Shown: positions 25,824-38,256 of the stretch, piece after piece | How the letters are laid out: each line of letters starts with the position of its first letter | Position numbering within the stretch: the stretch's first letter is position 1 | Source of the DNA: Streptomyces roseoverticillatus | GTDB lineage: Bacteria > Actinomycetota > Actinomycetes > Streptomycetales > Streptomycetaceae | NCBI RefSeq assembly: GCF_000719265.1 | Contig: NZ_JOFL01000032.1 | Location: 30,193-94,192 of the forward strand | Direction of reading: 5' to 3' | Length of the DNA stretch: 64,000 bases | Made by a program: the position numbers and the translations under genes | The notes under the pieces: model-generated | Seen by the model: the letters and a program-made list of their open reading frames with translations, nothing else | Told to the model about the DNA's origin: nothing | Database searches by the model: none

Positions 25824-27200
<1,377 letters not shown>

Positions 27201-27250
27201 CGGATTCCTCCAGGTGAGGCGGGCGCTCGGGGGAAGGGGGGTGGCCCGCT

Positions 27251-27266
27251 TTTGGTCTACACCACT
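27251..27266. promoter_or_regulatory. DasR operator (dre) upstream of nagE2, site 1
   Basis: TTTGGTCTACACCACT matches 13 of 16 positions of the dre consensus ACTGGTCTAGACCACT. It lies 51 bp upstream of the nagE2 start. DasR is the GntR-family repressor that releases its sites when glucosamine-6-phosphate rises. Confidence 0.8.
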
Positions 27267-27267
27267 G

Positions 27268-27283
27268 AGTGGTTTAGACCATG
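27268..27283. promoter_or_regulatory. DasR operator (dre) upstream of nagE2, site 2
   Basis: AGTGGTTTAGACCATG matches about 12 of 16 dre positions and starts one base after the first site. Two adjacent sites suggest strong repression of nagE2. Confidence 0.65.
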
Positions 27284-27346
27284 TTGTAGCACGTGAGTCC
27301 GGGATAAAGGAATCCGTGCTTCCCGGTGGCTTCCGACACAGCGGAA

Positions 27347-27373
27347 AGCCCCCGGCCGGGCACTCCGGGGGCT
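27347..27373 (-). terminator. hairpin terminator after nagE1
   Basis: A 9-bp G/C stem (27347-27355 with 27365-27373) lies between the nagE1 stop and the nagE2 promoter. On the minus strand it is followed by TTTCC. It should separate the two transporter transcripts. Confidence 0.75.
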
Positions 27374-27407
27374 CGTGACAGGGAGCGATTACCCCTGCAC
27401 GGTGCAG

Positions 27408-27445
27408 CTAGTCCTTGACGTTCCCGCTAGTCCTTGACGTTCCCG
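27408..27445 (-). repeat. 19-bp tandem duplication over the nagE1 stop codon
   Basis: Two identical 19-bp copies (27408-27426 and 27427-27445) sit head to tail. The gene-proximal copy contains the last six codons and stop of nagE1. The second copy repeats them after the stop, so the protein is not changed. Confidence 0.95.
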
Positions 27446-28752
27446 CGCTCGATCTCCTCCGCGAGCTCTTCCGGTTCACGCCCCGGAGTCGGCAGGTCGA
27501 ACTTCGTAATCGCGAACCGGAAAATCGCGTAGTAGACGACCGCGAAGCACAGCCCGATCGGAATGATCAGCCACGGCCTGGTCGCCAGCCCCCAGTTGAT
27601 CACGTAGTCGATCAGGCCGGCCGAGAAGCTGAAGCCGTCGTGCACCCCCAGGCCCCAGCTCACCGCCATCGACACGCCCGTGAGCAGCGCGTGCACCACG
27701 TACAGCACCGGCGCGATGAAGAGGAACGAGTACTCGATGGGCTCGGTGATCCCCGTGACGAACGAGGTCAGGCCCACCGAGAGCATCATGCCCGCGATCT
27801 CCTTGCGCCGGTGCGGCTTCGCGCAGTGCGCGATGGCCAGCGCCGCGGCGGGCAGCGCGAACATCATGATGGGGAAGAAGCCGGTGGTGAACTGGCCCGC
27901 GTGCGGGTCGCCGGCCAGGAAGCGGTTGATGTCGCCGTGCACCACCGTGCCGTCCGGCTTCGTGTAGTCGCCGAACTGGAACCACATGAAGGTGTTGAGG
28001 AACTGGTGGAGCCCCACCACCAGCAGCGCCCGGTTCGCCACGCCGAAGACGCCCGATCCCCCCGAGCCCAGGTCCGACAGCCACTTGCTGAAGCTCGTCA
28101 GCGCGTCGCCGACCGGCGGCCAGACGAACAGGCAGATCACCGCGAAGCCCAGCGCGACGAACGACATCAGGATCGGCACGAGCCGGCGCCCGTTGAAGAA
28201 GCCCAGCCAGTCCACCAGCCGCACCCGGTGGTAGCGCATCCAGAACCACGCGCTCAGCAGGCCGATCACGATGCCGCCGAAGACCCCCGGGTTCTGGAAG
28301 CTCGCGGGGGACGCCTGCCCGCCCATGGAGACGCACACCCCGCTCCACAGCCCCGCCCCGCCGAACGTCGACTCGTGCGGGCAGTCCTCCGGGAACTGGT
28401 GCAGCACGGAGAAGTAGACGAGGAAGGCCACCACGGCCGCCAGCGCCGTCGAGCCGTCCGCCTTCTTCGCCATGCCGATGGCCACGCCCACGCAGAACAG
28501 CAGCGGCAGGCCGAGCGCCGAGTCCAGCAGCGCGCCGCCCGCGCCCGCGAAGACCTTCGCCACGTCCGTCCAGCCCAGCCCGTCCGTGCCGAAGACGTCC
28601 GGCTGGCCGAGCCGGTTCAGGATGCCCGCGGCCGGGAGCACCGCGATGGGGAGCTGGAGGCTGCGGCCCATCTTCTGCAGGTTCGAGAAGAGGGTCTGCC
28701 AGCGCTCCCGCCACCGGTTCTGACGCGGCGCGGCCGCGGCGTCCGTGCTCAT
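27427..28752 (-). CDS. nagE1: PTS N-acetylglucosamine permease paralogue, EIIC component (NagE1-like)
   Basis: The 441-residue EIIC protein is a close paralogue of the neighbouring NagE2-like protein. It has the same GRSLQLPIAVLPAAGI opening and GITEPIEYSFLF sugar-binding motif, but no Lys-rich N-terminal tail. A loop insertion at about residues 125-155 contains several Cys and Gly residues. It is divergent from nagF across a single strong dre site. In S. coelicolor, as I recall, NagE2 is the main transporter and NagE1 is less important. Confidence 0.85.
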   Translation of the reverse strand: MSTDAAAAPRQNRWRERWQTLFSNLQKMGRSLQLPIAVLPAAGILNRLGQPDVFGTDGLGWTDVAKVFAGAGGALLDSALGLPLLFCVGVAIGMAKKADGSTALAAVVAFLVYFSVLHQFPEDCPHESTFGGAGLWSGVCVSMGGQASPASFQNPGVFGGIVIGLLSAWFWMRYHRVRLVDWLGFFNGRRLVPILMSFVALGFAVICLFVWPPVGDALTSFSKWLSDLGSGGSGVFGVANRALLVVGLHQFLNTFMWFQFGDYTKPDGTVVHGDINRFLAGDPHAGQFTTGFFPIMMFALPAAALAIAHCAKPHRRKEIAGMMLSVGLTSFVTGITEPIEYSFLFIAPVLYVVHALLTGVSMAVSWGLGVHDGFSFSAGLIDYVINWGLATRPWLIIPIGLCFAVVYYAIFRFAITKFDLPTPGREPEELAEEIERGNVKD

Positions 28753-28805
28753 CTGCGTCCTCCCGGCCGCCGCCCCGGCGACGGTCCACTCGGTGCTTGC
28801 CGCAT

Positions 28806-28821
28806 ACTGGTGTAGACCACT
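28806..28821. promoter_or_regulatory. DasR operator (dre) between nagE1 and nagF
   Basis: ACTGGTGTAGACCACT matches 15 of 16 positions of the dre consensus. It lies between the divergent nagE1 and nagF genes and can repress both. This is the best of the three sites in the window. Confidence 0.9.
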
Positions 28822-28957
28822 TATGCGCGCGCTTGTGGGTGTCGCCATCATTTGCCAGACGGCGGACATATGCCCACATAGTTGGGCTGAACGTGGTTTA
28901 CCGTGGGGAAGCCGGTCGGTGGTACCGCCGAAGGGCCGAAGACAACCAGGAGTGCAC

Positions 28958-29191
28958 ATGGCCAGCAAGGCTGAGAAGATCGTCGCCGGCCTCGGCGGCA
29001 TCGACAACATCGAGGAGATCGAGGGCTGCATCACCCGTCTCCGCACCGAGGTCGCCGACCCGGAGCTCGTCGACGAGGCCGCCCTCAAGGCCGCCGGCGC
29101 CCACGGCGTCGTGAAGATGGGCACCGCCATCCAGGTTGTCATCGGCACCGACGCCGACCCGATCGCCGGTGAGATCGAAGACATGATGTGA
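28958..29191 (+). CDS. nagF: PTS N-acetylglucosamine EIIB component (NagF-like)
   Basis: The 77-residue EIIB protein passes phosphate from HPr/EIIA to the incoming sugar. The phosphorylated cysteine is Cys24 in EGCITRLRTEV. Its size is that of a single free EIIB domain, so it can serve both EIIC proteins encoded on the other strand. The ATG is preceded by a CCAGGAG site. The 136-bp leader contains the dre operator upstream. Confidence 0.92.
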   Translation: MASKAEKIVAGLGGIDNIEEIEGCITRLRTEVADPELVDEAALKAAGAHGVVKMGTAIQVVIGTDADPIAGEIEDMM

Positions 29192-29198
29192 GCCGTGA

Positions 29199-29223
29199 GC
29201 CGTGAGCCGCTGAGGCTCACGGC
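29199..29223 (+). terminator. hairpin after nagF
   Basis: A 10-bp stem (29199-29208 with 29214-29223) closes a GCTGA loop eight bases after the nagF stop. A second G/C-rich arm pair further on (29226-29233 with 29277-29284), followed by TTCGCCTTG, may form the main terminator. Confidence 0.65.
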
Positions 29224-29318
29224 CGGGGCCCCGCCCGGAATGCGCGCATACGTAACATACGTACCGCGATCCGGAACGGGGCCCTTCGCCTTGCCCCGAT
29301 ACCAGTAGGCTCATCACC

Positions 29319-30050
<732 letters not shown>

Positions 30051-30181
30051 GCAGCCGCGCGGGCAGCGGCGCAGGCGACCGCGCAGGCAACCGCCGGAGG
30101 ATCACCAGCGTTCCTACGGGCGTACGGACGGGACAGCCCCGCCCGTACGCCCGTAGCCGCATCAAGGGGAGGGAAACCCTC

Positions 30182-30571
30182 ATGTCCGCCATCTCCGCCC
30201 GCAGGACGTCTCTCGCGCTCGCCGCCGCCGCGCTCGCCGTACCGCTCGCCGCCGGCTGCTCCACCGCCCAGAAGGCTGTCGACTGCGCCCGCCTCGGCAT
30301 CGAGATATCCAACGACGTCGACGACCTCCAGCGCAGCGTCACCGACACGGCGACCGACACCGACAACGCGGGCAGGATCCTCGACAACCTCGAGAAGGAC
30401 ACGAAGAAGCTCAAGGACAAGAGCAGCAACGTCGACGTCGGCAAGGCCCTCGACCACCTGGAGAAGGCCATCGGGAACGTCCGCGACGCCCTGCGGAACG
30501 ACAAGACCCCGGACCTGACGCCGGTCACGGACGCGGCCGGAGAACTCTCGAAGGTGTGCACGTCGAAGTAG
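30182..30571 (+). CDS. putative lipoprotein
   Basis: The 129-residue protein has a signal peptide with the lipobox LAAGC (Cys26). The mature part is mainly helical, with many Asp, Lys and Leu residues and a likely coiled coil (DDLQRSVTDTATDTDNAG, LDNLEKDTKKLKDKSS). Two further cysteines lie near residue 35 and at the C-terminus. It is probably held on the outer face of the cytoplasmic membrane. The family is not recognised. It lies between rph and rdgB. Confidence 0.75.
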   Translation: MSAISARRTSLALAAAALAVPLAAGCSTAQKAVDCARLGIEISNDVDDLQRSVTDTATDTDNAGRILDNLEKDTKKLKDKSSNVDVGKALDHLEKAIGNVRDALRNDKTPDLTPVTDAAGELSKVCTSK

Positions 30572-30598
30572 ACCGGGGCGGGCCGGGATAATCGCCCC

Positions 30599-31201
30599 AT
30601 GAAGCGCCTGATCCTCGCCACCCGCAACGCCAACAAGGTCACCGAGCTCCGCGCCATCCTGGAGGCCGCCGGCCTCGGCGTCGAACTGGTCGGCGCCGAC
30701 GCCTACCCCGAGGTCCCGGACGTCAAGGAGACCGGCGTCACCTTCGCCGAGAACGCCCTCCTCAAGGCCCACGCCCTCGCCCGCGCCACCGGCCACCCGG
30801 CCGTCGCCGACGACTCCGGCCTGTGCGTCGACGTCCTCGGCGGCGCCCCCGGCATCTTCTCCGCCCGCTGGGCCGGCGCCCACGGCAACGACAAGGCCAA
30901 CCTGGACCTCCTCCTGGCCCAGCTCGGCGACATCGCCGACGAACACCGCGGCGCCCACTTCGCCTGCGCCGCGGCCCTGGCCCTCCCGGACGGCACGGAG
31001 CGCGTCGTCGAAGGCCGCCTGGAGGGCACCCTGCGCCACGAGCCCGCGGGCGGCGGCGGCTTCGGCTACGACCCGGTCCTGCAGCCCCTGGGCGAGACCC
31101 GCACCTGCGCGGAGCTGACGGCGGACGAGAAGAACGCGATCAGCCACCGGGGGAAGGCGTTCCGGGCGCTGGTGCCGGTGGTGCGGGAGCTGCTGGGCTG
31201 A
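30599..31201 (+). CDS. rdgB: XTP/dITP diphosphatase (RdgB/Ham1)
   Basis: The 200-residue enzyme cleans the nucleotide pool by hydrolysing dITP and XTP to monophosphates. The family motifs LATRNANKVTELRAI, DDSGLCVDVLGGAPGIFSAR and SHRGKAFRAL are all present. It lies 27 bp after a lipoprotein gene and ends at a strong hairpin shared with the convergent tRNA gene. Confidence 0.96.
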   Translation: MKRLILATRNANKVTELRAILEAAGLGVELVGADAYPEVPDVKETGVTFAENALLKAHALARATGHPAVADDSGLCVDVLGGAPGIFSARWAGAHGNDKANLDLLLAQLGDIADEHRGAHFACAAALALPDGTERVVEGRLEGTLRHEPAGGGGFGYDPVLQPLGETRTCAELTADEKNAISHRGKAFRALVPVVRELLG

Positions 31202-31208
31202 GACAACG

Positions 31209-31241
31209 GCGTGTGGCACCCGCACTGCGGGTGCCACACGC
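31209..31241. terminator. hairpin between rdgB and the tRNA gene
   Basis: A perfect 16-bp inverted repeat (31209-31224 with 31226-31241) with one central base lies seven bases after the rdgB stop and six bases beyond the tRNA 3' end. It can terminate both transcripts. Confidence 0.9.
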
Positions 31242-31247
31242 CGAATG

Positions 31248-31323
31248 TAGGGCCGACGAGATTCGAACTCGCACTGTCCACTACCTAAAAGTGGCGCCTC
31301 CTGGCCAGTTGGGCTACGGCCCC
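31248..31323 (-). tRNA. tRNA with UAG anticodon in a class I body (nominally tRNA-Leu)
   Basis: Read on the minus strand, a 76-base cloverleaf is clear. The acceptor stem is GGGGCCG with CGGCCCT, followed by discriminator A. The D-arm stem is GCC/GGC, with the conserved GG in a long D-loop. The anticodon stem is CCACT/AGTGG with loop TTTAGGT, giving anticodon UAG, which reads CUA leucine codons. The variable loop is only five bases (ACAGT). The T-arm is GCGAG TTCGAAT CTCGT. Leucine tRNAs normally have a long variable arm, so which synthetase charges it is open. No CCA is encoded. The first ten bases overlap the end of the HNH gene. Confidence 0.85.
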
Positions 31324-32024
31324 ACGACTAGATTACTGGTCCTGCTGCTGTCAGTGCCAGCGGGAGGGACTGGACGGCGTTGCCGCCCGCCACGGCACCA
31401 GGTGCTTGTGATCGAGTGACAGTTGGGGCAGAGCATCCGGAGGTTCTCTCGGCGATCGTCGCTCCAGTCACCGTTGATGTGATCGATCTCCAGAGTCATG
31501 GGCCCGCCGTGCCACACAGGGCCGGTTCCACAGCGGGCACACTCTTGTGGCACGCCGATCTCGCCCAAGGCTCGGCGGAGCAGCGCTGTCTTGGTTCGGC
31601 GTTTGCCGCTGTGTTTGACGAGCAGTTCCTCCGGGGTCTTTCTGGGGGTTGTGCCGGGCCTTCCACGTTGGTGCGCCTGCCCGAGAAAGTGAGAAGTAGT
31701 GAGGCCGTCCTCGTCCATCCACTTGCGCAATCGGGAGCGCTGACCGGCGGTGCTCCGCCGGCCGAGCCGTCTCAGCGCCTCAGCCATGGACGTGGACCGG
31801 GACACTGCGTCGCGCAGGGTGTCGGGGCACGGCCTGCCTCTGCGGTACGGGCGACGAGGAAAGTGCGAGACGTCGATTCCGTAGTGTGCGAATCGCCGAT
31901 AGAGGTACTGGGGCAGGTGGCGATAGGGCCGGGTACCGAAGAAGGCTATGACCTCATTGATGTCGGCGCACGTTCGAGCAGCCTCGGCCAGCCGCTCACG
32001 CGTGTACGGCGTGCCGCTGCTCAC
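31314..32024 (-). CDS. HNH endonuclease (second of pair, overlaps tRNA)
   Basis: The 236-residue protein has two copies of an N-terminal motif ending in G(I/L)xxSHF (GIDVSHF at 49-55, GLTTSHF at 107-113), probably helical DNA-binding modules. The C-terminal HNH nuclease domain has Cys162/Cys165 and Cys199/Cys202 for a structural zinc. Its active-site motif is LEIDHINGDWSDDRRENL, with His182 as the general base. The GTG start overlaps the upstream HNH stop (GTGA). Its TAG stop is positions 8-10 of the tRNA. The family resembles homing-type HNH proteins. The target is unknown. Confidence 0.85.
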   Translation of the reverse strand: MSSGTPYTRERLAEAARTCADINEVIAFFGTRPYRHLPQYLYRRFAHYGIDVSHFPRRPYRRGRPCPDTLRDAVSRSTSMAEALRRLGRRSTAGQRSRLRKWMDEDGLTTSHFLGQAHQRGRPGTTPRKTPEELLVKHSGKRRTKTALLRRALGEIGVPQECARCGTGPVWHGGPMTLEIDHINGDWSDDRRENLRMLCPNCHSITSTWCRGGRQRRPVPPAGTDSSRTSNLVVGP

Positions 32025-32698
32025 CGGCCCTCACCGCTACTACGTGATGCGCGGCGGGCAACTGCGTGACGGGCCTTCCCACGGCCACGGTACGTGTCCG
32101 TTGTCGAGTGGCAGTTGGGGCAGAGCAGCCGCAGATTCTCGATGCGATTGTTGCGCCAGTCTCCGTCGATGTGGTCGACCTCCAGCGGCAGTGGATACCC
32201 CTGCCACGTGGCCTCGATGCCGCACAGTACGCAGCGGTCGGTCACGCCGAATGCCAGCAATGCTCCCCTGAGGCGACAGCTCTGCTCGCGGCGAGCCTTG
32301 GGCGAGGTCTGCACGGTCAGCAGTTCCTCCGGGGAGCGCTTCCGTTTCGCCACTCCCGAGGCGGGAGTGGCGAAGTGTGAGGTATCGATGCCGAACGCCC
32401 GGACCCGGCGGCTGATGTGGGTGTGGTGGCCGCCCACTACCTCGATGCCGAGGTGGCGTAGGACTTCGCACATGTTGGACGACGCCGCCACCGCGTCTTC
32501 GAGGATCTCCTTGGTCCAGCGAGCCCCTTCGCGTTCGAAGTGGGACGTGTCCACGCCCAGCTTCCGCATGCGGTCGTGAAGATACCGGCGGCGCGAACTC
32601 TTCGGGTCCACCCCCAGCTTCTCCAGCGCCTCCGATAACGTCCGCGACGATTCCGCCGCCTCCGCCAGAACCTCTCGCGTGTACGGACTGACAGGCAT
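32021..32698 (-). CDS. HNH endonuclease (first of pair)
   Basis: The 225-residue protein shares its architecture with the next gene. Two GxDTSHF-type repeats (GVDTSHF at 48-54, GIDTSHF at 103-109) precede an HNH domain with Cys156/Cys159 and Cys193/Cys196 zinc pairs and catalytic LEVDHIDGDWRNNRIENL (His176). The pair looks like a tandem duplication that has diverged. It begins 113 bp after the ProP gene stop on the same strand. The DNA looks less G/C-rich than neighbouring genes, which suggests acquisition. Confidence 0.85.
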   Translation of the reverse strand: MPVSPYTREVLAEAAESSRTLSEALEKLGVDPKSSRRRYLHDRMRKLGVDTSHFEREGARWTKEILEDAVAASSNMCEVLRHLGIEVVGGHHTHISRRVRAFGIDTSHFATPASGVAKRKRSPEELLTVQTSPKARREQSCRLRGALLAFGVTDRCVLCGIEATWQGYPLPLEVDHIDGDWRNNRIENLRLLCPNCHSTTDTYRGRGKARHAVARRASRSSGEGR

Positions 32699-32811
32699 GG
32701 CGCCCCTCCCCGACGTCGATGTGATGCGACCGCGTATCCGTTCGCGATCTCGAACTCATCAACGACGCGCCTGCCCGACAGTTACGCCAAATGTGCGAAC
32801 CATCTGACCTG

Positions 32812-34329
32812 TCAGAACTTCGGTTCGGGCGCCCGGGACGTCACCATCTCCTCCGCTTCCTCCCGCGTCGCCACCGCCGGCGGCGACCCCTCCAGCGGCC
32901 GGCGCGCCGTCTCCCGCATGAAGGCGACGGCGACCATGCCGACGAGGGCCGCGCCCGCCGTGTAGACCGCGGGCGTCATGTCGCTGCCCGTGGCGTGGAT
33001 CAGGGCCGTGATCACCAGTGGGGTCGTGCCGCCGAAGAGGGACGTGGAGAGGTTGTAGCCGATGGCGAGGGAGCCGTAGCGGACCGGGGTGGGGAAGAGG
33101 GCGGGGAGGGCCGCGGACATGGTGCCCAGGAGGCACACCAGGGGGAGGCCCAGCATCAGCATGCCGCCCAGGACCGCGGGCAGGCTGCCCTGTTTCAGCA
33201 GCAGGAACGCCGGGGCCGACAGGACCACGAAGCCGCCCATGCCCGCCATCAGCAGCGGTTTGCGCCCGACGCGGTCGCTCAGGCGCCCCACACACGTGAT
33301 GACCGTCATCAGCAGGGCCATCGTCGCGATGAGGATCAGCAGGCCGTGCGTGTCGTCGTAGCCGAGCTGGTCGGTCAGGTACGTCGGCATGTACGACAGC
33401 AGCATGTAGTCGGTGATGCCGTACGCCCCGGCCAGGACCACGCAGAGCAGCAGCCTCGCCCACTGGGTGGTGAAGATCTGCTTCAGCTCGGTGCCGCCGC
33501 CTCCCGCCTCCTCCTCCGCCAGCTTCTGGAACGCCGGGGTGTCCTCCAGCCGCAGCCGCAGGTACAGGCCCACGAGCCCGAGCGGCCCGGCGACGAGGAA
33601 GGGGATCCGCCAGCCCCAGTCCGTCATCGCCGCGCCGCCGAGCGCCGACGTCATGGCCGTGACGAGGCCCGCCGCGCCGATGTAGCCCGCGAGGGTGCCG
33701 CATTCGAGGAAGCTGCCGAAGTAGCCGCGGCGCTTGTCGGGCGCGTACTCGGCGATGAACGTCGCCGCGCCCCCGTACTCGCCGCCCGTCGAGAAGCCCT
33801 GCAGCATCCGGAAGCAGATCAGCAGCACCGGCGACCAGAAGCCGATCGCCGCGTACGAGGGGATCAGGCCGATGGCGAAGGTGCCGGAGGCCATCAGCAC
33901 CATCGTCAGGGCCAGGACGCGCTTGCGCCCCACCCGGTCGCCGAGCGGGCCGAAGAACATGCCGCCCAGCGGCCGGACGAGGAAGGCCACGGCGAACGTC
34001 GCCAGCGACGACAGCAGCCGCACCGTGTCGTTGCCCGAGGGGAAGAAGACGTCCCCGAGGGTGACGGCGAGGTAGCTGTAGATGCCGAAGTCGAACCACT
34101 CCATGGCGTTGCCGAGCGCGGCCGCCTTGACGGCCCGTCTCACGGTCCGTTCGTCCGTGACGGTGATGTCCGTGCGCCGCAGCCGGGGGTTGCGGCGGCG
34201 GGCGACGGCCCGGAAGAGGGCCGGGTGGCGTCTGACCGCGGCCGGGTCGTGGCCGTTGCCATGTCCGTTCGTATGCCCGTTGCCGTTCCCGTTTCCGGTC
34301 TCGGCTTCCGTGCTGCTGCCGTTGGGCAC
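32812..34329 (-). CDS. MFS transporter of the metabolite:H+ symporter type (ProP-like)
   Basis: The 505-residue transporter has twelve membrane segments and the family motifs GNAMEWFDFGIYSYLAV near helix 1 and FFGPLGDRVGRKRVL between helices 2 and 3. FSTGGEYGGAATFIAEYAP marks the MHS subgroup. It probably imports proline, betaine or a carboxylate with protons. The N-terminal 55 residues form an unusual Asn/Gly/His repeat (NGNGNGHTNGHGNGH) before the basic RRRNPRLRR stretch. The GTG start precedes that tail. A later start is possible but none is better supported. Confidence 0.88.
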   Translation of the reverse strand: MPNGSSTEAETGNGNGNGHTNGHGNGHDPAAVRRHPALFRAVARRRNPRLRRTDITVTDERTVRRAVKAAALGNAMEWFDFGIYSYLAVTLGDVFFPSGNDTVRLLSSLATFAVAFLVRPLGGMFFGPLGDRVGRKRVLALTMVLMASGTFAIGLIPSYAAIGFWSPVLLICFRMLQGFSTGGEYGGAATFIAEYAPDKRRGYFGSFLECGTLAGYIGAAGLVTAMTSALGGAAMTDWGWRIPFLVAGPLGLVGLYLRLRLEDTPAFQKLAEEEAGGGGTELKQIFTTQWARLLLCVVLAGAYGITDYMLLSYMPTYLTDQLGYDDTHGLLILIATMALLMTVITCVGRLSDRVGRKPLLMAGMGGFVVLSAPAFLLLKQGSLPAVLGGMLMLGLPLVCLLGTMSAALPALFPTPVRYGSLAIGYNLSTSLFGGTTPLVITALIHATGSDMTPAVYTAGAALVGMVAVAFMRETARRPLEGSPPAVATREEAEEMVTSRAPEPKF

Positions 34330-34577
34330 GGCTCGGCCCCCTCACGCTTCGGCGGTGACGTACGTACGCGCCTGCGTCTGCACGCTGCGCCGCCGCTCAA
34401 ACCGGTGCGCCCCCCGAGAGGGAGATAGGTCACGCCCGGCGGGCGGCCCGCCGGGCAGGGGGCTGCGGAAGCTGATATAGGCATGAAGGGAACGCGCGGC
34501 CCGATTTCACCGTCCCTCACAGCGGGGACGCACAGCCGTATCCCGGAAGACCTGCAAGACACCAGAGAGAGAGGCCG

Positions 34578-35111
34578 ATGGCCGACCGTGTGGCGCTCCG
34601 CCGGCCCGGCATGCGCACCGCCCTGGCGATCTTCGCGGTGGTGACGGTGCCGGCCATCGGCGGCCTGTGGGTGAGCGCGGCCGGGGACCGGTCGGACGCG
34701 GTGGCCGACGCCCCCAAGACGGCGGCGGCGCAGAAGTCGCACCTGCCGCGCGGTCCGGAGGCGGCGACGGCGCAGGACACGCCGGCGCCGCAGGAGCTGC
34801 CGGGCGTGCGTGAGTGCGGGGTCGGCAAGCCGGTCGTCGAGCCGAAGATCATCACGCTGAACTGCTCCAACGCGGGCGTTGTGGCCAGTGACATCAAGTG
34901 GGACTCGTTCGGCGCCGACGGCGCGGACGGCTCCGGCGTCGTGCTGGTCTCGGGCGCGGCCGGCGGCGGTGCGCCGGCCTCCTTCCCGGCGCGGCTGCGG
35001 CTCTACGACGTCACGAAGGTCGACGGCATGATGGCCTTCACGGGCATCGAGGTCAGCTATACGGGTGCCACCCCTCATGCGAAGGCGAAAGAGGTGTACA
35101 CGATCGCGTGA
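34578..35111 (+). CDS. exported protein of unknown function, coupled to sensor kinase
   Basis: The 177-residue protein has a signal anchor at about residues 12-35, then a disordered Ala/Thr/Pro linker. A C-terminal beta-rich domain (about 75-177) contains two cysteines, in RECGVGKP and LNCSNAG. The last base of its stop codon is the first base of the kinase start (TGATG), so the pair is translationally coupled. It may be the periplasmic partner that tells the kinase what is outside. I do not recognise the domain. Confidence 0.75.
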   Translation: MADRVALRRPGMRTALAIFAVVTVPAIGGLWVSAAGDRSDAVADAPKTAAAQKSHLPRGPEAATAQDTPAPQELPGVRECGVGKPVVEPKIITLNCSNAGVVASDIKWDSFGADGADGSGVVLVSGAAGGGAPASFPARLRLYDVTKVDGMMAFTGIEVSYTGATPHAKAKEVYTIA

Positions 35112-36352
35112 TGGGTATCCGTGGCCGGATCGCCCTCGCGATCTCCTTCGTCACCGCGCTCGCCGTCGTGGTGCTGGGACTGGCCGTGCACCACATTTCC
35201 GCGGCGGAGCGCGACCGGCAGGCCCAGGCGTACCAGGACGACTTGCTGAGCTCGGCCCTGCAGATCTACCAGCGCGACAGCACCCTCGCCCTGGGCGCTC
35301 AACTGGACGACGCGGCACTGCCGTTCCCGCTGGCCCGGGCCGTGGCGCGGGGCCGCTCGGGTACGTACATCAGCGGTGGTGAGGACCCGCGGGTGTGGGC
35401 GGCCACGGCCGTCGGCGGCGACAAGGTGCTGTCGGTGTCGGCCCCGTACCCGGACCGCGACCCCTTGATGACGGCGCTGGACAAGGCGCTGCTGGTGGCG
35501 GGCGCGGCGACGGTGGCGCTGATGGCGGTGGTCGCCTGGTTCGTGGCGCAGAGCCTGTCGCGGCGGTTGCGGCACAGTGCGGCCGCGGCCCGGCGGATTG
35601 CGGCGGGCGAGCCGCCGGACGCGGAGGCGCTGGCGGCCGGCGGCCGGGACGAGGTCGCGGAGCTGGGCCGCTCGGTTCACCACATGGCGACGTCGCTGGC
35701 GGCGCGGGTGGAGGCGGAGCGCGAGTTCACGGCCGACGTGGCGCACGAGCTGCGCACGCCGGTGGCCGGGCTCGTGGCTTCGGCGGAGCTGCTGCCGCAC
35801 CCGCGCGCCGTGGAGATGGTGCGCGAGCGCGCGCAGACGATGCGGGTGCTGGTGGAGGACTTGCTGGAGGTGTCCCGGCTGGACGCCGGCCGGGAGCGGG
35901 CCCAGCTCGACGAGGTGGAGCTGCCGTCGCTGGTGCGGGGGATCGTCAAGCGGGCGCAGGGCCAGCGCGGCGTGGACGACGTGGCGGTCGAGGTGGTCGG
36001 CGAGGGCCGGATCGTGGCGACGGACGCCCGCCGTGTGGAGCGCATCCTCGTGAACATCCTGGCCAACGCGGCCAAGCACGGGAAGCCGCCGATCGAGGTC
36101 ACGGTGCGGGGCACCCGGATCGTCGTGCGCGACCACGGCGACGGCTATCCGCCGGACCTGGTGGACCAGGGCCCGCGCCGCTTCCGCACGGCGGCGCCGG
36201 AGCGGGGCACGGGGCACGGCCTGGGGCTGACGATCGCCGTGGGCCAGGCGGTGGTGCTCGGGGCGCGTCTGGAGTTCGGCACGGCGGAGGGCGGGGGCGC
36301 GCGGGCGATTCTGGACCTGCCCGAGGCGGAGGCTCCTGCGGAGGGCGGGTGA
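35111..36352 (+). CDS. sensor histidine kinase without adjacent response regulator
   Basis: The 413-residue membrane kinase has two helices (about residues 7-29 and 125-147) around an extracellular sensor of about 95 residues. A HAMP-like linker follows, then the H-box DVAHELRTPVAG (His212), the ATP-binding N-box ILANAAKHG, DHGDGYP and GHGLGLTIA. Sensor kinases usually have a regulator gene next to them. Here the partner is the exported protein gene, and the gene downstream is bcp on the other strand. Its response regulator must be elsewhere. Confidence 0.9.
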   Translation: MGIRGRIALAISFVTALAVVVLGLAVHHISAAERDRQAQAYQDDLLSSALQIYQRDSTLALGAQLDDAALPFPLARAVARGRSGTYISGGEDPRVWAATAVGGDKVLSVSAPYPDRDPLMTALDKALLVAGAATVALMAVVAWFVAQSLSRRLRHSAAAARRIAAGEPPDAEALAAGGRDEVAELGRSVHHMATSLAARVEAEREFTADVAHELRTPVAGLVASAELLPHPRAVEMVRERAQTMRVLVEDLLEVSRLDAGRERAQLDEVELPSLVRGIVKRAQGQRGVDDVAVEVVGEGRIVATDARRVERILVNILANAAKHGKPPIEVTVRGTRIVVRDHGDGYPPDLVDQGPRRFRTAAPERGTGHGLGLTIAVGQAVVLGARLEFGTAEGGGARAILDLPEAEAPAEGG

Positions 36353-36448
36353 CGGCGCTTGCCGTGCGGGCCCGTTGCGCCTGCGGCGGGCGTCCTCGAA
36401 CGCCGGACGGGCTGGATTTTTGCCTGGAGCCCGTCCGGCGATCGATCC

Positions 36449-36916
36449 CTACAGGCCCAGGTCCTTGATGATCTTCGCGACGTGCCCCGTGGCCTTCACG
36501 TTGTAGAGCGCCCGCTCGACCCGGCCGTCCTCGTCGACGATCACCGTCGACCGGATCACCCCGGTGACCGTCTTCCCGTACAGCTTCTTCTCGCCGAACG
36601 CCCCGTAGGCCTCCAGCACCTTCTTCTCCGGGTCGCCGACGAGCGTGACCTTCAGGCTCTCCTTCTCGCGGAACTTCGCGAGCTTCTCCGGCTTGTCGGG
36701 GGAGACGCCGATCACGTCGTAGCCGTGGCCGGTGAGGAAGTCGAGGTTGTCGGTGAAGTCGCAGGCCTGCTTGGTGCAGCCGGGGGTGAGCGCGGCGGGG
36801 TAGAAGTAGACGATCACCTTGCGGCCCTTGCGGTCCGCGAGCGAGACCGGGTTGCCGTCGGCGTCGGGAAGGGTGAAGGCGGGGGCGGTGTCGCCGGGCT
36901 GCAGTCGCTCGCTCAT
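36449..36916 (-). CDS. bcp: thioredoxin-dependent peroxiredoxin (Bcp-like)
   Basis: The 155-residue peroxidase has the Bcp peroxidatic motif YPAALTPGCTKQACDF, with the peroxidatic Cys48 and a nearby Cys53 that may be the resolving partner. PAFTLPDADG marks the thioredoxin fold start. It removes hydrogen and lipid peroxides in the cytoplasm. The ATG at 36916 follows a GAGGAG site. The usual threonine of the motif is seen as T in LTPGCT. Confidence 0.93.
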   Translation of the reverse strand: MSERLQPGDTAPAFTLPDADGNPVSLADRKGRKVIVYFYPAALTPGCTKQACDFTDNLDFLTGHGYDVIGVSPDKPEKLAKFREKESLKVTLVGDPEKKVLEAYGAFGEKKLYGKTVTGVIRSTVIVDEDGRVERALYNVKATGHVAKIIKDLGL

Positions 36917-37057
36917 GGCTCTCCTCGGGTCGTGGGCCTGCGTCCCGAGCGTAGCCACCGGCCCGATCGGGGGTGCCGCGGGGCACGGCGTCCGGTGAGC
37001 TGACAGACTGTCGTCATCACTCATCATCACTCTTATCGAGACGACGGAGGCAGCGCG

Positions 37058-37378
37058 GTGTCGGATGCCAGGACCCCTGCGCAGATCGAGGCGGACATCG
37101 CCCGCAGGCGGAGCGAGCTCGCCGTGACGCTCGACGAGATCGGCGTGCGCATGCACCCGGCCACGATCATGGGCGACGCGAAGGCGAAGGTCGCCGCGAA
37201 GGTGGACCACACCGCGGGCCGCGCCTGCGCCACGGCGCACCGGCTGGTTTCGGACGTGAAGGCCCGCCTCACGACGGAGGACGGCGCGCCGCGGCTGGAG
37301 CGGATCGTGCCGGTGGCGATGGTCGCGGTGGGCGTGATCGGCCTGATCGCGGTGTCCTCGCGCAAGCGCGAGAAGTAG
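37058..37378 (+). CDS. DUF3618 family membrane protein
   Basis: The 106-residue protein begins with the DUF3618 signature RTPAQIEADIARRRSELA, a helical amphipathic stretch. It ends with one membrane segment (about residues 85-101) followed by basic RKREK. Such proteins are common in actinobacteria. The function is unknown. The GTG start follows a GGAGG site at a proper distance. Confidence 0.85.
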   Translation: MSDARTPAQIEADIARRRSELAVTLDEIGVRMHPATIMGDAKAKVAAKVDHTAGRACATAHRLVSDVKARLTTEDGAPRLERIVPVAMVAVGVIGLIAVSSRKREK

Positions 37379-37498
37379 AGCAGGGGCCCGGGCGGAGCGT
37401 AGGCGGGGCGTAGCCGGGCGTGGCCGGGGCGTAGGTCATATCCGCGGATCCGCGATCTGTGGCCGCGGGGCCGCGTGCGGGCAGGTACGGTCGTCTGC

Positions 37499-37840
37499 GT
37501 GAGCACGAACACCACCCACGACAAGCTGCCCATCCGGATGCTGCACGATCGCGTGCTGGTCCGGACCGATATCCCGGAGGGCGAGCGCCGGTCCTCCGGT
37601 GGCATCGTCATTCCCGCGACGGCGGCGGTGGGCCGCCGGCTGGCCTGGGCCGAGGTCGTGGCGGTCGGGCAGAGCGTACGGACGGTGGAGCCGGGCGACC
37701 GGGTGCTGTACGACCCCGAGGACCGCGCGGAGGTGGAGGTCCGGGGCGTGGCGTACGTGCTGATGCGGGAGCGTGACCTGCACGCGGTGGCGGCGGAGCG
37801 GCTGGAGGGGGCCGAGGACTCCACGGGGCTGTACCTCTGA
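37499..37840 (+). CDS. GroES-like (Cpn10 family) protein
   Basis: The 113-residue protein has the Cpn10 fold, with LPIRMLHDRVLVRTD at the start and a central mobile-loop region around ERRSSGGIVIPA. It ends with DRVLYDPEDRAEVEVRG. It is not next to groEL and differs from the genuine groES, so it is a paralogue. Its chaperonin partner, if any, is unknown. The GTG start is in frame and gives the normal length. It is followed at 20 bp by the guanidine riboswitch. Confidence 0.85.
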   Translation: MSTNTTHDKLPIRMLHDRVLVRTDIPEGERRSSGGIVIPATAAVGRRLAWAEVVAVGQSVRTVEPGDRVLYDPEDRAEVEVRGVAYVLMRERDLHAVAAERLEGAEDSTGLYL

Positions 37841-37860
37841 GTTTGCTACGGTCGTAGGTA

Positions 37861-37901
37861 CCCGACGAGACGCGCCGTACCGGGTCAGGACAAGACGACG
37901 C
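37861..37901 (+). promoter_or_regulatory. guanidine-III (mini-ykkC III) riboswitch
   Basis: The sequence closely matches the guanidine-III riboswitch consensus I know from Thermobifida fusca: a CCCG arm, ACGAGACGCGCCGTAC, the CGGG partner, TCAGGACAAGACG and a closing ACGC. The first helix is 37861-37864 with 37881-37884. The pseudoknot pairs about 37872-37878 with 37895-37901, with one C-A mismatch. It ends 34 bases before the sugE start and should switch on the exporter when guanidine builds up. Confidence 0.85.
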
Positions 37902-37935
37902 ACCCCTGGAAGCTCTTCTCCACGGAGGTGCCGTC

Positions 37936-38256
37936 ATGGCATGGGTCCTGCTCGCCGTCGCCGGCCTGCTCGAGGTCGGCTGGTCGATCGGCATGAAGTT
38001 CACCGACGGGTTCACGCGGCTGTGGCCGAGCGTGTTCACCATCGCGGGTATCGCCGCCAGCATGCTGCTGCTGTCACAGGCGGCGAAATCCCTGCCCATC
38101 GGTACGGCCTACGGGGTGTGGGTGGGCATCGGCGCGGCCGGCGCGGCGGTCCTGGGCATGCTGGTCCTGGGCGAGCCCGCCACGGCGGCGCGGATCTTCT
38201 TCATTGTGCTGCTGCTGGTGGCGGTCGTGGGTCTGAAGGCGACCTCGGGTCACTGA
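37936..38256 (+). CDS. sugE: SMR-family guanidinium exporter (SugE/Gdx)
   Basis: The 106-residue membrane protein has four helices. The first contains the essential glutamate in AGLLEVGWSIGMKFTDGF (Glu13), and helix 4 is IFFIVLLLVAVVGLKA. The GxxGxKxT-type signature GWSIGMKFTDGF supports the Gdx branch, which exports guanidinium, rather than the drug-exporting EmrE branch. The riboswitch directly upstream supports the same role. The ATG follows a GGAGGTG site. Confidence 0.95.
   Translation: MAWVLLAVAGLLEVGWSIGMKFTDGFTRLWPSVFTIAGIAASMLLLSQAAKSLPIGTAYGVWVGIGAAGAAVLGMLVLGEPATAARIFFIVLLLVAVVGLKATSGH

Follow-up and report, generated by a model that had tools for sequence, protein, structure and literature searches.

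A tRNA-Leu(UAG) gene linked to free-standing HNH nucleases in place of the resident tRNA gene of Streptomyces

In Streptomyces roseoverticillatus, two HNH nuclease genes (HNH1 and HNH2) and a divergent tRNA-Leu(UAG) gene form a cassette that sits in place of the ordinary class II tRNA-Leu(UAG) gene. Comparison with other genomes shows that the cassette has been exchanged horizontally many times and that the linked tRNA copy replaces a resident, presumably essential gene. The three genes likely represent a free-standing homing-endonuclease/tRNA cassette of probable phage ancestry.

Anatomy of the cassette

The window, i.e., the whole stretch of 64,000 nt of S. roseoverticillatus NZ_JOFL01000032.1 that was analyzed (its own genome is labelled G000), contains the following features:

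30599..31201 (+): rdgB (Ham1p_like), convergent flank outside the cassette, 45 bp from the tRNA gene
31207..31243 (no strand): perfect hairpin in the gap between rdgB and the tRNA gene, read from the sequence and an Rfam search
31247..31323 (-): tRNA-Leu(UAG), 77 nt, class I body, discriminator A
31314..31323 (-): 10-nt overlap of HNH2 and the tRNA gene; the HNH2 stop TAG is tRNA positions 8-10
31314..32024 (-): HNH2, 236 aa, same architecture as HNH1 and ~40% identical to it
32021..32024 (-): GTGA overlap of the HNH1 stop (TGA) and the HNH2 start (GTG)
32021..32698 (-): HNH1, 225 aa, two three-helix SHF modules and an HNH domain
32812..34329 (-): MFS/ProP-type transporter, the other flank, same strand and upstream of HNH1, outside the cassette

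An earlier note, made from the window alone, had described two HNH genes coupled by a GTGA overlap and running into a tRNA gene on the same strand, located between rdgB and the gene of a ProP-type transporter. All of this is correct, and the stop codon of HNH2 even lies inside the tRNA gene: tRNA positions 1-10 coincide with the end of HNH2, its final 10 nt including the stop. The two GxDTSHF modules ascribed to each protein are also present, each closed by Gxx(T/V)SHF, but the motif is looser in HNH2 (GIDVSHF, GLTTSHF) than in HNH1 (GVDTSHF, GIDTSHF). Likewise, the DNA of the unit is less G/C-rich than its surroundings, as had been noted, but only mildly so (0.64-0.67 vs. ~0.68-0.77). No integrase was recognized among the ORFs of at least 80 aa listed within 26000-38000. 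HNH1 and HNH2 are ORFs of their own outside introns and inteins, and the tRNA gene is uninterrupted. The hairpin probably acts as a terminator in both directions and bounds the exchanged interval; sequence identity to a close relative (G060) drops starting at this position. Beyond rdgB, a small gene for a secreted or lipoprotein-like product (30182-30571, between rph and rdgB) is weakly conserved (36-58% identity in most matches) among well-conserved neighbors.

HNH1 has Pfam matches to PF13392 (7.9e-8) and PF01844 (2e-6), and HNH2 to PF01844 (1.7e-5); in both proteins, Pfam gives only an HNH domain, and a GIY-YIG domain is absent. The predicted structure of HNH1 places two three-helix units ahead of the HNH core (mean pLDDT 86.3, pTM 0.48); comparison of this model with the PDB returned nothing significant (best match McrA, E 0.068; I-HmuI in 22nd place, E 1.4). 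Both proteins match phrog_10822 (HNH1 5.6e-60, HNH2 2.1e-46), and the best PADLOC match of HNH1 is a homing-endonuclease model (2.7e-14). None of the toxin or defence families in PADLOC fits either protein beyond the HNH core, to which also the matches of ZorE are confined.

The tRNA of the window, whose anticodon reads CUA, scores 49.4 bits against the Rfam tRNA model. It lacks the long variable arm present in the tRNA-Leu of the same genome with the anticodons GAG, CAG, and UAA; a class I body is not the normal form of a bacterial tRNA-Leu. Exact copies are rare (DNA matches in 4 of 150 genomes, one of them partial) because the bodies differ among genomes: at 80% single linkage, the tRNA(UAG) bodies fall into five groups and one singleton split, and both class I and class II are common. 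The tRNA inventories were read in part, those of G005 and G064 mainly for class II-sized genes. Elsewhere in G000, a second class I tRNA(UAG) (contig C26, 74841-74914) lies beside a different PF01844 HNH gene (74497-74631); a tRNA similar to this copy occurs in 8 of 150 genomes, with tRNA-like remnants near some. A weak tRNA-like match on contig C9 (41527-41585; 33.9 bits, without ARAGORN call) is perhaps a degraded tRNA.

A change in the genetic code at UUG was considered and rejected. The tRNA(CAA) of G000 has a class I body as well, and the TTG codons of this genome align with leucine in 32 of 32 positions of relatives, which counts against recoding of UUG; the CTA codons are too rare for such a test, with only 9 aligned positions (5 Leu, 3 Val, 1 Arg). 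Codon rarity alone was rejected as the driver of the body change: TTA is rarer (0.26 vs. 0.66 per 1000), yet the body of its tRNA(UAA), bldA, which is without such a nuclease, was kept in the three genomes compared.

Association of HNH and tRNA genes in bacteria and phages

Matches to HNH1 (E<=1e-3) are present in 92 of 150 Streptomyces genomes. In 50 loci (the window included), comprising 30 returned by the search and 20 more distant ones picked by hand from the matches, a tRNA with the anticodon UAG is always located downstream on the same strand and is always adjoined by rdgB (50/50 each); these counts represent one chromosomal site and are not phylogenetically independent. By contrast, among PF01844 HNH genes of 21 Streptomyces genomes, which served as control, none of the top 30 loci has a tRNA within ~1.5 kb; an exception outside these 30 is the HNH gene at 74497 on contig C26 of G000, which adjoins tRNA(UAG). 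The junction itself is tight in most of 150 HNH loci: the HNH stop precedes the tRNA by 0-30 nt in 64 and by 31-100 nt in 27, lies exactly at tRNA positions 8-10 in 13, and belongs to a frame that enters or crosses the tRNA elsewhere in 31. The gap exceeds 100 nt in 5 loci (the second genes are decayed in those known), and 10 lack a motif-bearing ORF.

The association extends to other families. A class-wide search yielded matches to HNH1 in 58 of 394 genomes; all loci returned from other families (11/11) have tRNA(UAG) as a same-strand neighbor; its body is class I in family f17 and class II in f19 and f37, and rdgB is absent from these loci. In 20 further loci picked from weaker matches (one of them Streptomyces), a tRNA invariably lies beside or overlaps the HNH frame (20/20), with the isotypes UAG (9), Thr-UGU (7), Leu-UAA (2, class I), Arg-CCU (1), and Pro-GGG (1). 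In a scan of GTDB species, tRNA-Leu(UAG) adjoins the HNH gene in 79 of the best 80 loci among at least 596 pattern matches (76 on the same strand, 3 convergent); these 80 loci represent at least 8 named families, and 47 are from outside Streptomyces, of which 8 have rdgB inside the locus. The earlier note would have regarded the linkage as accidental if HNH homologs were almost never next to a tRNA; they are so in 50/50, 11/11, 20/20, and 79 of the best 80 loci against 0/30 in the control; this control and the recurrence of the pair at other chromosomal sites rule out accidental neighborhood.

Several of the weaker matches differ in kind. The Thr-UGU loci L281 and L283-L288, from two families, encode a different, short zinc-ribbon HNH protein, whereas in L276 and L279, also from two families, class I tRNA-Leu(UAA) adjoins an SHF-HNH gene. 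In L290 (2164-4008), tRNA-Pro(GGG) is followed by two tandem SHF-module genes with a different C-terminal domain (289 aa each), and in L277, the HNH gene is followed 13 bp further by tRNA-Arg(CCU).

Among mobile elements, matches to HNH1 comprise 230 phage records and one weak plasmid record, and a plasmid vehicle was rejected on account of this single weak match. Of 14 phage records read, 7 have tRNA-Leu(UAG) next to the HNH gene, 4 have other tRNAs, and 3 have none. The order HNH-tRNA(UAG), with the genes overlapping or no more than ~20 bp apart, occurs in Escherichia phage mistaenkt, Citrobacter phage Maleficent, Pseudomonas phage phiPsa347, Vibrio phage D69, and a Klebsiella phage; in Agrobacterium phage Atu_ph07, the two genes are convergent, and in Gordonia phage GodonK, the tRNA is on the 5' side of the HNH gene. 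In IMG/VR, a tRNA is present within 150 bp of the HNH gene in 50 of 80 loci and absent from this range in 30; the nearest tRNA is Leu in 20 of the 50, whereas Leu makes up 52 of the 413 remaining tRNAs in these loci (p 7e-6); Gln is likewise overrepresented (9/50). Class I tRNA-Leu(UAG) occurs in phages, and the body of the window tRNA is similar to the tRNA-Leu found in phages of Streptomyces (86.7% over 60 nt) and in mycobacteriophages. The type represented by the window tRNA (T3) matches phage tRNA-Leu over most of its length; the search for a phage source of the class I types T1 and T2 gave only partial matches.

Replacement of the resident tRNA gene

The gene rdgB is present in 148 of 150 genomes. 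In 57 of 60 further genomes, taken in listing order (one with a contig ending at the site was skipped), tRNA(UAG) lies next to it; two of the three exceptions are G037, with a class II copy ~9.9 kb off, and G047, with a partial match ~21 kb off. Altogether, 108 tRNA-bearing sites have intact HNH genes (motif and open frame; 58 sites), remnants (22 sites, of which some, e.g., L187, may be intact), or no HNH similarity (28 sites); G005, for instance, has remnants of HNH1 at its rdgB site. HNH-free relatives carry the tRNA at this site too, which identifies the tRNA gene as the resident and the HNH genes as those that come and go, and the invasion, decay, and loss cycle of free-standing homing endonuclease genes is evident at these sites. 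The earlier note would have regarded the tRNA's presence at this site in HNH-free relatives as a sign of accidental linkage. Such sites do exist (28 of 108 without HNH, 22 with remnants). Chance is nevertheless not the explanation of the linkage, since HNH and tRNA genes are paired again at different chromosomal sites of other families as well as in phages.

The HNH-free genomes mostly share one near-identical class II body. Its canonical anticodon arm is present at 15 of the 28 HNH-free sites, 4 of the 22 sites with remnants, and 2 of the 58 intact sites (intact vs. HNH-free, Fisher 1.6e-7, kinship ignored). Conversely, class I bodies are found at 39 of the 58 intact sites, counting the 80-nt tRNAs of L041 and L048 as class I, and at 8 of the 50 other sites (7.8e-8, kinship ignored); the class II bodies number 19 of 58 and 42 of 50, respectively. 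Since the first 50 loci had been chosen for HNH, the 58 sites not so chosen are given separately: class I bodies occur at 4 of 10 intact sites, 2 of 20 with remnants, and 4 of 28 without HNH.

A search with the canonical class II tRNA found it in 70 of 150 genomes, at one place each and within 300 bp of rdgB in 62. No near-canonical class II copy turned up elsewhere in the 47 class I genomes, and the insertion of an extra tRNA beside the normal one was rejected for this reason; the search missed the divergent class II tRNA of G005, so that the exclusion applies to near-canonical copies.

Comparison with G060, a close relative (rdgB protein 96% and response regulator 100% identical), delimits the exchanged interval. 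The flanking genes are mostly 93-99% identical at the nucleotide level, with 87-97% per 120-nt bin in rdgB, but identity drops to 54-88% between 31241 and ~32800, with its minimum at the tRNA. The HNH genes of the two genomes differ by dS of 0.77 and 1.22 at dN/dS of 0.16 and 0.14; the high dS combined with low dN/dS indicates that the replaced interval is an older allele that was brought in, and not the product of fast protein change. In nine pairs of genomes, dN/dS is 0.10-0.33 in 16 of 18 comparisons and 0.65 in the two that involve a decayed HNH2; the HNH genes are under purifying selection.

On the rdgB tree (50 rows), the tRNA types require 24 changes, against a mean of 25.8 in shuffles, of which 46 of 200 are as low, whereas they require only 20 on the tree of the proximal HNH (67 rows; shuffled 33.9) and 17 on that of the distal HNH (51 rows; shuffled 26.2), with 0 of 200 shuffles as low in either case. 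The body type is thus random on the rdgB tree and clusters on the HNH tree, i.e., tRNA and nuclease partly travel together. The clustering concerns types T1 and T0; type T2 is not clustered (13 changes, shuffled 14.6), which indicates that bodies change also without a change of HNH clade and that the tRNA can be exchanged alone. Clustering of the HNH groups on the rdgB tree is slight (13 vs. 15.9 changes; 36/500).

A parallel case with an unrelated nuclease is tRNA-Leu(CAA). It adjoins a response-regulator gene in all 30 Streptomyces loci read and lies between this gene and pyk in the three genomes inspected. Of the 30 loci, 20 have a class I and 10 a class II body, and in 22, the tRNA is followed by a gene that is LAGLIDADG-like, an assignment based on a match to PF14528 below the cut-off (0.0014) and the conserved motifs LGLYLGDG and LIHSDG. 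In G000, the pair is located on contig C10:

L139, 4064-4981: LAGLIDADG-like gene
L139, 4956-5029: tRNA-Leu(CAA), same strand

In L139, L140, and L142, the LAGLIDADG-like gene directly follows the tRNA-Leu(CAA) on the same strand, and the tRNA is class I or class II depending on the species. Class-wide, a tRNA-Leu adjoins the LAGLIDADG-like gene in 49 of 49 loci (30 returned and 19 chosen): 45 are CAA, 43 of them on the same strand, and 4 are UAG (L541-L544, family f4), where the gene is divergent from a class II tRNA-Leu(UAG) on the opposite strand. On the LAGLIDADG tree (22 rows), the class of tRNA-Leu(CAA) requires 2 changes (shuffled 7.3; 0 of 500 as low), compared with 6 on the tree of the neighbor gene for the same rows (shuffled 7.2) and 8 for all 30 rows (shuffled 8.4). 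The tRNA class follows the nuclease tree here as well.

Possible mechanisms and known systems

The replacement and the co-inheritance of tRNA and nuclease are probably the outcome of a homing drive. The HNH proteins would bind DNA via their helix-turn-helix-like modules and, in a cell that receives the cassette, cut the resident tRNA(UAG) allele or a sequence beside it. Recombination in rdgB and the transporter gene would then repair the break and copy in the whole interval; the incoming tRNA would decode CUA for the cell and escape cutting because its body differs. After fixation, the nucleases would become superfluous and erode, and the tRNA would stay. A homing cassette in which the tRNA serves as both resistant allele and rescue explains why the anticodon is constant and the body variable, why body change, judging from the stability of bldA in three genomes, is limited to nuclease-linked tRNAs, the replacement in place, the decay after fixation, and the choice of isoacceptor. 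The nucleases may cut the resident copy and spare the linked tRNA, as suggested by the scarcity of the canonical anticodon arm at intact sites. Several observations count against the cassette: 2 of the 58 sites with intact HNH have the canonical arm, 4 of 28 sites without HNH have class I bodies, T2 is unclustered, and in the viral contigs, Leu is the nearest tRNA in only 20 of 50 loci and no tRNA is near in 30 of 80. The dependence of the Streptomyces counts on one site and the lack of a significant PDB match for the HNH1 model also weigh against it. Of the three ideas offered in the earlier note, a homing or selfish module is the best supported, a tRNA-supplying module becomes part of it, and nothing was found in support of a toxin-like nuclease set.

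The tRNA site beside rdgB might instead be a hot spot for recombination with phage tRNAs, with the HNH genes riding along and cutting elsewhere, or not near the tRNA at all. The class I tRNA-Leu(UAG) of phages that resemble these bodies, the changes of tRNA type inside HNH clades, and the class I bodies at sites without HNH would all fit, but a hot spot leaves unexplained why the HNH subfamily is found beside UAG at different chromosomal sites, why it lies beside one UAG tRNA within phage arrays of up to ~20 tRNAs, and why the CAA class tracks the nuclease tree; we consider it unlikely. Somewhat less probable still is a diversification of the bodies to evade attack at the RNA level (anticodon nucleases, tRNA-cleaving defence, or competitor toxins), with the nucleases as a mere vehicle for resistant bodies. 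It would account for a change of the body under a constant anticodon, and according to the available text of PMC13096335, tRNA genes next to SegB in phage T6 counter a tRNA-cleaving defence; yet bldA tRNA(UAA), which reads a rarer codon and has no such nuclease beside it, shows no change of body among three genomes. A constant anticodon with an altered body, as well as the genetic coupling, would be expected also if the HNH proteins were an RNase toxin against canonical tRNA-Leu(UAG) and the linked tRNA its immune form. This is very improbable, considering that the matching HNH families are DNA nucleases, that the tRNA outlasts the decay of the HNH genes by far, and that no known toxin or defence model fits beyond the similarity of the HNH domain.

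If the homing cassette is extended to both isoacceptors, it is conceivable, although we lean slightly against it, that natural cleave-and-rescue drives govern the chromosomal tRNA-Leu genes of actinobacteria, those for UAG and CAA at the least, with two unrelated nuclease families acting on one isoacceptor each. In that case, the resident allele would be cut and give way to a recoded tRNA, in many cases of the class I type found in phages; the cell would depend on the tRNA of a selfish element, and the identity rules of class I tRNA-Leu would evolve under nuclease pressure. The genes of tRNAs are usually regarded as slowly evolving and vertically inherited; here, two tRNA-Leu genes, each linked to a homing-type nuclease, exchange the entire body, at times across the divide between the two classes, and do so with such frequency that the body type carries no signal of the neighbor gene's tree. 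Should the mechanism hold, it would explain the origin of bacterial class I tRNA-Leu, with phage tRNAs becoming the host's own, raise the question of how tRNAs that lack the long variable arm are charged by leucyl-tRNA synthetase, and supply nucleases together with resistant and sensitive tRNA alleles for experiments.

The earlier note knew of no described system of this form. Relatives are in print, namely SegB and the tRNA arrays of mycobacteria, but among the papers listed in searches of the open-access literature, outside which most subscription papers fall, no account was found of a single chromosomal tRNA-Leu replaced by a nuclease-linked tRNA. SegB of phages T4 and T6 is a free-standing GIY-YIG nuclease encoded beside tRNA genes, which the available text of PMC13096335 implicates in breaks in tRNA-containing sequence and in the spread or amplification of the tRNA region. 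The association with tRNA genes is common to SegB and the HNH cassette; however, SegB is a GIY-YIG enzyme restricted to phages, with no isotype preference reported in that text (PMC13096335), whereas the cassette is HNH-based, chromosomal, and specific for tRNA-Leu(UAG), and replaces a resident host tRNA. HNH genes occur more widely than any other gene in the tRNA arrays of mycobacteria and their phages, and in cluster M phages, adjacent HNH genes are implicated in tRNA diversity (available text of PMC5966550); a horizontally acquired cluster of Mycobacterium contains a tRNA-Leu(TAG) with a short variable loop together with an HNH gene (PMC6582537, likewise in its available text). Those arrays are extra, many-gene clusters additional to the normal tRNA-Leu, unlike the single, isoacceptor-specific tRNA in the place of the normal gene at one conserved site.

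The phrog_10822 HNH proteins of Felix O1-like phages (Ounavirinae) and Otagovirus phages belong to the same protein family as HNH1 and HNH2, and their genes, like HNH2, adjoin a class I tRNA-Leu(UAG), ending 1-21 bp before it, but they have one SHF module and are encoded by a single gene inside long tRNA arrays. I-HmuI (1u3e) and other intron-encoded HNH homing endonucleases share with the cassette proteins the combination of an HNH core with extra DNA-binding modules; the cassette, however, is without intron or intein. Synthetic cleave-and-rescue drives combine a nuclease directed against an essential gene with a linked, recoded, and resistant copy, and are engineered and eukaryotic. The cassette, by contrast, is natural, bacterial, and located at the same locus as the gene that it replaces and presumably cuts, and would, if the mechanism holds, represent their natural chromosomal counterpart.
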